Assembly: GCF_010509075.1 (NCBI RefSeq)
Contig: NZ_CP048433.1
Coordinates: 186,001 to 250,000, forward strand
From: Collinsella aerofaciens ATCC 25986
Lineage (GTDB): Bacteria > Actinomycetota > Coriobacteriia > Coriobacteriales > Coriobacteriaceae
Length of the DNA stretch: 64,000 nt
Direction: 5' to 3'
Positions 447 through 41,993 of the stretch are shown in pieces. Below the pieces are notes generated by a model. The model was given only the letters and a program-made list of their open reading frames with translations, was not told where the DNA came from and ran no database searches. The translations under genes and the position numbers were made by a program. The stretch's first letter is position 1; each line of letters begins with the position of its first letter.

Positions 447-464
447 TACCTTTCATAGTCATTG

Positions 465-505
465 GGGACGTTCTTTAATGACTAGTCGTTTAAGAACGTC
501 CCCAA
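465..505. repeat. Perfect inverted repeat between S component and ATPase genes
   Basis: A 16-nt arm (TTGGGGACGTTCTTAA, with one extra T on the left copy) pairs with its complement across a short loop containing ACTAGT. It lies about 20 bp before the ATPase start codon on the minus strand. It may act as an intra-operon RNA hairpin that partly stops transcription or protects mRNA ends; no clear U-run follows on either strand. Confidence 0.75.
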
Positions 506-549
506 AAGCTAGTCGTTTGGGACAGTCTTTGGTGGTGAAGCACGGAGAC

Positions 550-650
550 GGCTTTACGAGGGGCCCCAGGTTGGCGCAAGAAAGAGGAGCGAAGCGTACT
601 TGGGTACGCGAGCGACGAATGAACGCCAAGATGGGGTGGCTCGTAAAGCC
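550..650. repeat. 101-nt long hairpin element with conserved core (family A)
   Basis: Outer arms GGCTTTACGAG (550-560) and CTCGTAAAGCC (640-650) pair, followed inward by CCCCA/TGGGG and TTGGC/GCCAA. Read on the minus strand, the inner 45 nt closely match the inner part of the element at 6170-6267 (shared TCGTCGCTCGCGTACC and AAGTACGC blocks), whereas the outer arms are unrelated. The element begins 7 nt after the S-component stop codon. Confidence 0.75.
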
Positions 651-657
651 GAGCGGG

Positions 658-4889: not shown

Positions 4890-4987
4890 ACTTACGTTCC
4901 CGTTCTGTGACTAACCGAGTATAGTTGTAAGGCAATGCCGATATCCTACCCGTGTTTTTCGGGCCTAACCTTATTCGATGGGTTGAT

Positions 4988-6121
4988 ATGTACATTTCCA
5001 CACATCAGGCTCTACTCGACTTTTGCCAGCGCGCCCGTGAGTTCGACGCGATTGCCGTCGATACCGAGTTTTTGCGCGAGCGCACGTTCCATCCGCGTCT
5101 ATGTTTGGTTCAGATTGCCACCCCTGCTGAGAGCGTCGCGGTCGATCCCCTGGTAATCGACGACCTATCGCCGCTGGCCGAGCTTATGGCCGACGAGAGC
5201 GTGACCAAGGTCTTCCACGCGTGCTCGCAGGATATGGAGGTCATGCTCCATACCGTGGGCGTGCTGCCACGACCGATTTTTGACACGCAGGTGGCCGCCG
5301 CCTTTTTGGGCGAGCGCCAGCAGATTTCGTATGGCGCGCTTGTTCAGACGTTCTGCGGTGTATCGCTGCCCAAGACCGAGTCGCTGACTGACTGGTCGCG
5401 CCGCCCGCTGACCGATAAGCAGATTGAGTATGCGATCGACGACGTCAAGTACCTGATCGTCGCCTATACCGAGATGATGAGCCGTCTGCGCGAGCTGGGC
5501 CGTGTGGACTGGGTGCTCGACGAGTTGCGCCCGCTGGCTGACGAGTCGCACTATCGCGCCGATCGCCACGAGGCGTTCCGCAAGGTCAAACGCATCAATT
5601 CGTGTAGCCGTCACCAGTTGGGCATCGCGCGCGAGCTCGCCGCTTGGCGCGAGGATCGCGCCGAGCGCCGTAACATCCCGCGCAAGTGGGTCATGTCCGA
5701 CGACACGCTGCTTGCGCTCGTTAAGCGCAATCCCGTGCGCGTTGAGGAGTTCCGTAGCATTCGCGGTACCGATCAGTTGGGGGAGCGCGACGTGGACGGT
5801 GCGCTCATGGCCATCAAGCGCGGCGCGAGCTGCCCGCACGATCGCCTGCCGCTCATGGTGCGCGGGCACCGTCAGATTTCGCCGGAGTTGGAGAGCGTGA
5901 CGGACCTGATGTATGCGCTCATTCGCCTAGTTGCCGAGCGCTCGGGCGTGGCGACCTCGGTCATTGCCTCGCGCGATGACCTGGCCGACTACATTGAGCA
6001 TCCCGAGCAGAGCCCCCTGCGCGAAGGCTGGCGCTTTGAGCTCGTGGGTTCGCGTCTAGACGATCTGCTTTCCGGCAATATGGGACTCACCGTGAAGGAC
6101 GGCAAAATCGAATTGCTGTAG
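4988..6121 (+). CDS. rnd: Ribonuclease D
   Basis: A 3'-5' exoribonuclease that trims tRNA and other structured RNA precursors. The N-terminal DEDD exonuclease domain has VDTEFLRE (first acidic pair, about residues 24-31), FHACSQDMEV (about 79), FDTQVAAAFLG (about 100) and a Tyr/Asp site around YAIDDVKYL (about 152-160). An HRDC domain follows at about 200-280 (ARELAAWREDRAERRNIPRKW). The ATG at 4988 is chosen because the preceding GTG (4952) adds 12 residues not seen in the family; neither has a strong ribosome site. The gene is divergent from the lipid kinase and is followed by the repeat at 6130-6267. Confidence 0.92.
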   Translation: MYISTHQALLDFCQRAREFDAIAVDTEFLRERTFHPRLCLVQIATPAESVAVDPLVIDDLSPLAELMADESVTKVFHACSQDMEVMLHTVGVLPRPIFDTQVAAAFLGERQQISYGALVQTFCGVSLPKTESLTDWSRRPLTDKQIEYAIDDVKYLIVAYTEMMSRLRELGRVDWVLDELRPLADESHYRADRHEAFRKVKRINSCSRHQLGIARELAAWREDRAERRNIPRKWVMSDDTLLALVKRNPVRVEEFRSIRGTDQLGERDVDGALMAIKRGASCPHDRLPLMVRGHRQISPELESVTDLMYALIRLVAERSGVATSVIASRDDLADYIEHPEQSPLREGWRFELVGSRLDDLLSGNMGLTVKDGKIELL

Positions 6122-6129
6122 GTATATAG

Positions 6130-6267
6130 TTACGCGGTTTTACCAAACCGCGTAACAGCTCGACGCTGCAAACGGCCGAGAGCGGCAATCTGACGTTCAA
6201 TCGTCGCTCGCGTACCAAAGTACGCGTCGCTTCTCTTTCACGTCACCTTGCTCGCTCTCGGCCGTTT
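6130..6267. repeat. 138-nt two-hairpin element (family A) with locus-specific stem
   Basis: Hairpin I (6130-6155) is TTACGCGGTTT-tacc-AAACCGCGTAA. Hairpin II (6170-6267) has perfect 15-bp outer arms AAACGGCCGAGAGCG and their complement, enclosing a core with CGCGTAC-caaa-GTACGCG. The element at 41709-41846 has the same two-hairpin plan, the same total length and the same GGTTTTACCAA and TCGACGCT blocks, but unrelated 15-bp outer arms. The core sequence also recurs at 550-650. Confidence 0.8.
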
Positions 6268-6359
6268 TCGCTGACATTGCCAAAACATTGATGTTGATTT
6301 GCTGGTCAGTCGAATGGGTAAAATGCCTCCAACGTGTAACTCGATTCGGAGGAATTCGC

Positions 6360-41666: not shown

Positions 41667-41705
41667 GCCCCCTTCCGTTCCGTGCGCGGGAGGGGGCGAC
41701 TTTTT
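41667..41705 (+). terminator. Terminator after the YfcC-family gene
   Basis: GCCCCCTTCC pairs with GGGAGGGGGC, followed by GACTTTTTG. Confidence 0.8.
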
Positions 41706-41708
41706 GTT

Positions 41709-41846
41709 CCGCGGTTTTACCAAGCCGCGGAACCGGTCGACGCTACGCGCCGTCCAGAACGACAATTTGTCATTCAAAAGGCAAGGCATGACCAAAAGGT
41801 CTATGCCTCGCCTTTTTCATGCCAACTTGTACGTTCTGGACGGCGC
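41709..41846. repeat. 138-nt two-hairpin element (family A), second copy
   Basis: Hairpin I (41709-41730) is CCGCGGTTTTACCAAGCCGCGG. Hairpin II (41747-41846) has perfect 15-bp outer arms GCGCCGTCCAGAACG and complement, and an inner stem AAAAGGC-a-AGGCAT with ATGCC-t-CGCCTTTT. Total length and the order of blocks equal those at 6130-6267. The core sequence has changed on both sides of its stem, so the fold is preserved. Confidence 0.8.
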
Positions 41847-41993
41847 TCGCTGTCCGTCCTCTGCCTGCGGCGCTTTCCATTGTTGGTGCAGAGGGCGCTT
41901 TGCCTACTCTGGCGGGCTTTCGCTGGCTTATGCTCAACCTGCGACGTATCCATTATTGATACAAAGGCCAGGTTTGTTTGAACCAAAAAGGGG

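Follow-up and report, generated by a model that had tools for sequence, protein, structure and literature searches.

An Apparently Unnamed Two-Hairpin Repeat at Gene Ends in Collinsella aerofaciens and Its Order

Copies of the Repeat in the Window

The stretch of DNA analyzed here (64,000 nt from Collinsella aerofaciens ATCC 25986, hereafter the window) contains three copies of a palindromic repeat. The first occupies positions 6129–6273 of the plus strand, behind rnd (ribonuclease D, 4952–6121, plus strand; an open reading frame scoring above the TIGR01388 cut-off, L048), whose stop codon ends 7 nt 5′ of it. It opens with hairpin I (6129–6156, plus strand), read directly from the sequence as 12 bp around a TACC loop (GTTACGCGGTTTTACCAAACCGCGTAAC), continues through a spacer ending in TCGACGCTGC, the linker (6157–6169, plus strand) with the motif YCGACGCTGC, and then enters hairpin II, whose outer stem P1 is formed by perfect 15-bp pairing of 6170–6184 with 6253–6267 (both plus strand). 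The second copy (41706–41852, plus strand) has the same plan, and its P1 arms (41747–41761 and 41832–41846, plus strand) also pair perfectly while being unrelated in sequence to those of the first. Directly 5′ of it, at 41667–41705 of the plus strand, lies a GC hairpin with a T-run that resembles a terminator by eye; this hairpin recurs in four related loci (L072–L074 and L081), which have CTCTTGT in place of the T-run. The third copy (550–651, minus strand) is a relative consisting of hairpin II only and lies 6 nt 3′ of the stop codon of a minus-strand open reading frame (658–1350). Among 20 loci from relatives it is present in 16; L155 and L156, also among the 20, stop short of this position.

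For searches, 19 full copies from this genome (18 distinct) were aligned with MAFFT (alignment A1) and a covariance model, R1, was built from the alignment, so that the copies in A1 match the model by construction. The linker motif corresponds to invariant or nearly invariant columns of A1. The core of the element measures approximately 145 nt. Hairpin I and the linker come first; in hairpin II, which follows, the outer stem P1 leads through a small internal loop to P2 and from there through a further loop to the inner stem P3, and the unit closes with TCGCTG and a variable tail. Full copies are 144–150 nt long. R1 recovered the first copy with 151.3 bits (E = 5.4e-31), the second with 148.9 bits (E = 1.8e-30) and the third with E = 7.3e-5.

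A preliminary description of the window, made from its sequence alone, had reported two copies with a common plan, hairpin I, spacer and perfect 15-bp arms, and these were confirmed letter by letter, both copies also matching R1. Its length of 138 nt is correct up to the end of the outer arms, beyond which the model extends the two copies to 145 and 147 nt. The relationship of their core to 550–650 was borne out by the R1 match there. The arms, described as unique to each locus, do differ between the 6.1- and 41.7-kb copies and yet recur elsewhere: a relative has arms one base from the 41.7-kb type (L231, in the slot called E below), and five copies in the C. aerofaciens genome of the window (L009–L013) have one common arm pair, with a single changed base in L012. 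As a separate observation, a subfamily of hairpin-II-only copies (L024, L026, L029, L034, L036, and L037) has an outer stem of the CGGGTTTTCCAAGTGCC type and lies near stop codons by eye.

Abundance and Range of the Repeat

BLAST of the C. aerofaciens genome with 6126–6290 as query returned 54 matches, some of which represent hairpin I matching itself in reverse. R1 returned 55 matches at E ≤ 0.01, some of the weak ones being reverse-strand echoes of strong ones, and 32 at E ≤ 1e-11, the first window copy among them. The model search of Collinsella and of the class, which the preliminary description had put forward as a check, found many further copies, and not the window's copies alone, the outcome that it had named as refuting. 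Within the genus, 34 of 43 genomes matched R1 at E ≤ 1e-6 (24–38 matches in 21 genomes, 1–12 in 13, and none in nine). In the class, 52 of 197 genomes had matches, all within a single order, which we take from its named members to be Coriobacteriales, the order of Collinsella; of 198 genomes sampled across the phylum, six matched, and these too belong to that order. Stricter filters applied whenever more than 40 genomes were searched (genus, class and phylum), so that the counts given are lower bounds, and they include some reverse-strand echoes. Ten members of the order, picked from those with matches, had 3 to 35 matches each at E ≤ 1e-8. Each species is represented by one genome in these searches, and "relatives" refers throughout to closely related genomes at the species level, of which many carry the name C. 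aerofaciens.

The linker YCGACGCTGC is found in most of the copies inspected from related genomes, and most of the distant copies inspected keep the whole plan, with the linker and the end CTCGCTG; a few distant copies (e.g., L113, L114, and L124) do not have a proper hairpin I. Phage records contained no match to 6129–6273, and the plasmid collection yielded a single matching record, 0.9 Mb long and from C. aerofaciens, in which 14 places matched. No Rfam family matched at its gathering score in the window or in eight loci from related genomes, in line with the earlier suggestion of an undescribed element, and two sub-threshold matches at 6100–6330 were to microRNA families. No such repeat in Coriobacteria was found among the open-access titles and abstract openings listed, a scope outside which subscription papers fall. 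On the basis of Rfam and the open-access literature, the two-hairpin Collinsella repeat of ~145 nt therefore represents a large and apparently unnamed family.

Position at Gene Ends

Hairpin I starts between −1 and +4 nt from a same-strand stop codon in 64 of 86 copies (93 rows, less seven without a nearby open frame of at least 70 codons). At distance −1 the element supplies the G of a TAG stop, and elsewhere it supplies the last four codons and stop of purC (L109) or the last nine codons and stop of fabF (L120 and L121; both genes named by NCBIfam). When every gene end is counted a single time, 81 non-redundant copies remain; 51 of them have a same-strand stop −1 to +10 nt from the hairpin I end, and two have an opposite-strand stop at this distance from the hairpin II end. 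This polarity towards gene ends is greater than simple neutral survival would predict and counts against a plain mobile-repeat reading. Distances of −1, +1 and +3 were commoner than 0, +2 and +4 (37 vs. 12, each gene end once; binomial p = 0.0005), a pattern noted post hoc.

The upstream genes are varied and include lysS, prfA, dapD, queA, an aroF-type gene, pyrE, rnd, hspR, tyrS, larE, ileS, rpoC, and ettA, among others. A scan of 28 upstream proteins (30 rows, with L057 and L064 left out) gave matches for 22, six or so of them translation genes, and none for six, with no evident functional theme. The 41.7-kb copy is exceptional in following its terminator-like hairpin and T-run and not a stop codon. 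Another copy of this genome (L064, 322560–322683), by eye without hairpin I, begins at the 3′ terminus of the gene for RNase P RNA (322203–322564; L293 and L064 together cover 322203–322683), showing that adjacency is not limited to stop codons.

One way to account for this placement would be a mobile element addressed to gene ends, whose machinery would recognize the 3′ ends of functional transcription units (stop codons, the RNase P RNA end, the end of a terminator-like hairpin) and time and again reload the same slots with another two-hairpin module, in one orientation, across the order. We regard such targeting as conceivable and rather unlikely.

Mobility and Turnover at Fixed Slots

The rnd protein of the window is 98–100% identical to that encoded at 20 Collinsella loci, many of them filed as C. 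aerofaciens. Behind rnd in these relatives the element is absent from 15 loci, whole in three, partial in one, and represented in one by an internally deleted remnant. Presence/absence polymorphism of the kind expected of MITEs is therefore seen, with 15 of 20 rnd loci empty. The empty sites are without the element alone, not without gene and element together, and none of the 15 contains a palindrome bearing the arms of the first copy. That the arms are ordinary terminators, an outcome the preliminary description had named as one that would overturn its reading, is rejected for rnd, where no such arms pre-exist at the empty sites. A further insertion was found within a coding sequence: at L101 (1501–1647) a 147-nt element forms 49 codons without a stop, in frame inside an otherwise open recQ (NCBIfam name). 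This insert, which lies in a variable linker, is missing from the three further genomes of the L101 genus that were searched (L176–L178). It is the one clear case of in-frame insertion into a protein gene, as is characteristic of Rickettsia palindromic elements (RPEs). No clean target-site duplication was seen at the two filled/empty comparisons made (rnd, and slot H with L263), where the junctions are blurred by small differences.

Turnover was followed at eight slots in ten genomes each, where 63 of 80 stretches matched with at least 93 bits, one of these 63 being cut by a contig end. P1 arms that differ at no fewer than five of 14 bases occur in six of the eight slots, and two or more P1 classes (single linkage, three mismatches) in five. 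Three hairpin I types, GTTACGCGG, GTTACGGCG and GTTCCGCCG, are each found with at least three P1 classes; the classes in this last count came from clustering at ≤4 mismatches, under which two classes that clearly differ fell together and L230 was misplaced, and the six- and five-slot counts were computed apart from it. Hairpins I and II recombine, their classes reassorting at the same slot. The 41.7-kb slot illustrates the exchange. Four relatives (L072, L073, L074, and L081) are 97.8–98.7% identical to the window over 993 upstream nt and have, at the same base, a hairpin I, arms and an inner stem different from those of the window's copy. The puzzle raised by the preliminary description is thereby answered: the arms differ through replacement of the slot's occupant and were not made on site. 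Arm classes also recur at several of the slots A–G, together with their hairpin II, and the arms follow the element rather than the slot.

These observations alter two proposals of the preliminary description. Creation of arms on insertion is contradicted by the recurring classes and by the empty rnd sites. The contrast it drew with mobile repeats that carry their arms along does not hold either, since recent copies do carry their arms, and several arm classes have diverged with pairing kept.

Composite copies, in which one element sits within the linker or inner loop of another, were recognized by eye among those listed (L186, L188, L191, L192, L194, L249, L250, and L252), and some remnants end within hairpin I. 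L204 and L205 differ by a whole hairpin that was apparently deleted at flanking short direct repeats (CCCC), the outcome that slippage over a hairpin in DNA would give.

Covariation and the Level at Which Pairing Is Kept

All stems of the two-hairpin element covary. In A1, both partners of a pair have changed in 127 cells, compared with a mean of 38 in shuffled alignments and a maximum of 24 when partners were slid. Among 92 distinct rows from across the order, 1106 cells have such double changes, compared with 354 in shuffles and a maximum of 230 with slid partners; 91.5% of the 4232 cells are paired, and both sides have changed in 46 of 47 pairs. The hairpin I helix is paired in 99.5% of cells in A1 and in 97.4% in the 92-row alignment. 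The latter alignment was fitted to the model, which favors the structure; A1, made with MAFFT, leads to the same conclusion. Chance is excluded as the source of arm pairing, and the earlier view that pairing itself is conserved was upheld, double changes standing far above both controls.

When one base of a G-C or A-U pair mutates, G-U and A-C arise about equally often, and selection on RNA keeps G-U and removes A-C. In alignment A2 of two-hairpin elements (88 unique sequences among the first 93 of its 100 rows; 36 of 47 pairs), 2971 cells were Watson-Crick, 40 were G-U, 58 were A-C, and 48 were of another kind. Alignment A3, of close relatives at the eight slots, contained 2029 Watson-Crick, 14 G-U, 34 A-C, and 17 other cells (first 63 of 93 rows, 59 unique; 36 pairs). 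Low-scoring rows and antisense self-matches were left out of both counts, and pairs were kept if at least 85% of cells were Watson-Crick. The RNase P RNA of the same order, used as a control with the same filter and an RNAalifold structure (26 of 30 fetched loci, the others being without full flanks), gave 1793 Watson-Crick, 18 G-U, 8 A-C, and 1 other cell, and at a 70% filter 75 G-U and 34 A-C. The repeat differed from this control by Fisher's test, which ignores relatedness (p = 0.014 for A2 and 0.0013 for A3); the alignments are fitted to the model, and the RNAalifold structure of the control itself prefers G-U-compatible columns. Counted as one-sided types per slot, G-U/A-C were 0/8 at H, 0/2 at D, 0/1 at G, 0/2 at C, and 2/1 at E, and the four sequences at 6130 gave two G-U and no A-C. 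The hairpin-II-only copy at 550 behaved differently, with 10 G-U and 4 A-C types in 17 sequences, some of them in pairs of flanking DNA.

The lack of a G-U excess in the two-hairpin elements, in contrast to RNase P RNA, suggests that their pairing is maintained mainly at the DNA level. RNA-level selection, seen as tolerance of G-U over A-C, is thus not apparent in them, and the "structured RNA" of the preliminary description is disfavored for these elements, whereas the more RNA-like 550 copy possibly is under RNA-level constraint.

A functional 3′-UTR RNA, in which hairpin I behind the stop and hairpin II would end or protect the mRNA or act on terminating ribosomes under RNA-level selection, would fit the sharp sense-strand position (64/86 copies at −1 to +4), the polarity (51/81 vs. 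2/81), the strong covariation, the copy without hairpin I that starts at the RNase P RNA 3′ end, and the preponderance of G-U over A-C in the widely kept 550 copy. A precedent would be the ribosome stalling reported for Escherichia coli REPs that lie no more than 15 nt from a stop codon (PMC12306157). The wobble counts speak against this explanation, as do the lack of the 6.1-kb copy in 15 of 20 relatives, the location of copies inside a gene (L101) or after a hairpin resembling a terminator (41.7 kb), and the variety of upstream genes, for which no common function is evident. We consider it improbable, without dismissing it.

The Candidate Mobilizer and a Second Repeat Family

If the repeat is mobile, one model is the REP/REPIN family spread by a RAYT transposase (TnpA-REP, of the Y1 family of HUH enzymes). 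Within the genus, a Y1_Tnp (PF01797) match was present in all 34 element-bearing genomes and in three of nine element-free genomes (p = 1.4e-5), leaving six of the nine without one. REPs, too, lie near gene 3′ ends and supply TAG stops (PMC3733652). Outside the genus the association disappeared: among 33 genomes hand-picked from earlier match lists, Y1_Tnp matches were found in 12 of 20 element-bearing and six of 13 element-free genomes (p = 0.49), and eight of the bearing genomes had none. Furthermore, none of 20 Y1_Tnp loci in the genus held the two-hairpin element within ~1.2 kb on either side, the single match at E = 0.004 being another palindrome, and several Y1_Tnp genes, among those listed, are flanked by GGGACAG-type palindromes instead. 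Neither a cognate Y1/RAYT gene in all bearing genomes nor a repeat flanking the transposase was therefore found, and the unit is not a 20–40-bp palindrome with a GTAG or CGTC tag but a 145-nt two-hairpin unit with YCGACGCTGC. The bearing genomes without Y1_Tnp and the absence of the element from Y1_Tnp loci make RAYT unlikely, and with co-occurrence confined to the genus RAYT/IS200 was rejected as the mobilizer; spread by RAYT is largely refuted, and we give it very little credence. No autonomous version of the element and no mobilizing enzyme were found, Y1_Tnp being the one candidate searched for.

Repeats with GGGGACG/GGGACAG tags form a second family (window positions 462–530 and 47061; L135–L154). 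They are partly arranged in inverted pairs, REPIN-like by eye. Several Y1_Tnp genes of RAYT-like type have them as neighbors, and many two-hairpin elements are followed by them downstream. Within the window, repeats of the GGGGACG type offer only four sites for stop distance, and a comparison on this point was not used.

A site for site-specific recombination resembling the integron attC, with a folded single strand, variable arms and a place directly behind a stop codon, would share with the repeat its stop-adjacent position, variable paired arms and DNA-level pairing, and the slight excess of A-C over G-U corresponds to G-T on the bottom strand. Empty rnd sites that miss the element and not gene plus element, and the dispersal of copies in the C. 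aerofaciens genome, make this reading highly implausible. The hairpin ends of the element are GTT…AAC, the reverse of the attC core boxes, which also counts against it. Least credible of all is the manufacture of arms at each insertion, into the loop of a target palindrome or terminator or by fold-back copying of the target, a notion that the unrelated perfect arms of the first two copies encouraged and that the 15 empty rnd sites and the arm classes traveling across slots A–G with their own hairpin II leave next to no room for.

A Proposed Mobile Repeat Dependent on Hairpin DNA

The findings are probably best explained by a family of non-autonomous palindromic mobile repeats of the REP/BOX/RPE kind, whose copies spread and replace one another by a hairpin-dependent DNA process. 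We suggest that this process would need hairpins on single-stranded DNA and might consist of transposition by some enzyme, of ectopic gene conversion in which copies exchange through the linker they have in common, or of both. Pairing of the arms may be kept because only copies that fold get copied, or because one arm serves to repair mismatches in the other within a cruciform or hairpin. Surviving insertions would lie for the most part directly 3′ of stop codons, presumably because nothing is broken there. Less easily fitted to this explanation are the absence of a clean target-site duplication at the two sites compared, the failure to find a mobilizing enzyme or an autonomous version, and the opposite wobble bias of the widely kept 550 copy.

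Several known systems offer partial parallels. REPs are 20–40 bp long, lie mostly within 20 bp of the 3′ ends of open reading frames in the species analyzed, can supply a TAG stop, and are occasionally found inside coding genes, DNA repair genes included (PMC3733652). The Collinsella repeat is likewise palindromic, dispersed, near gene 3′ ends, able to provide TAG and at times inside genes. However, REPs carry a GTAG/CGTC tag and depend on a Y1 transposase, whereas the 145-nt Collinsella repeat has other motifs and also occurs in genomes without a Y1_Tnp match. RPEs are 105–146 bp long, form a long stem-loop, lie in frame in protein genes and also occur in the gene for M1 (RNase P) RNA (PMC2229807), features paralleled by the recQ insertion of L101 and by the copy at the RNase P RNA 3′ end. 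In a comparison made by description only, RPEs differ in being known for insertion inside genes, whereas most Collinsella copies abut stops with fixed polarity. Pneumococcal BOX elements are built of modules, would be structured as transcripts and provide 36 coding sequences with their stop codon (PMC3049150), and the Collinsella repeat similarly exchanges hairpin modules and supplies stops; again compared by description only, BOX elements belong to another host group and range from 67 to 637 bp, in contrast to units of 144–150 nt with two hairpins and covarying arms. Intrinsic terminators and stabilizing 3′-UTR hairpins share GC-rich hairpins, gene ends and sense orientation with the repeat, which differs from them in being without a T-run of its own, in varying in presence among relatives and in its ability to follow a terminator-like hairpin (41.7 kb). 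The element thus resembles REP, BOX and RPE in its working but fails the tests for REPs, and is best called a two-hairpin, stop-abutting, module-exchanging repeat of one order.

As a natural system, the family comprises hundreds of gene-end hairpins exchanged with their pairing kept, in common human gut bacteria. It makes testable by comparison whether the stop proximity of palindromic repeats reflects targeting or selection, and whether perfect arms arise through RNA selection, copying dependent on DNA hairpins, or arm-to-arm correction. In practical terms, the ends of genes and the DNA between genes differ among close relatives through these repeats, and their annotation in Collinsella and related genomes is advisable.
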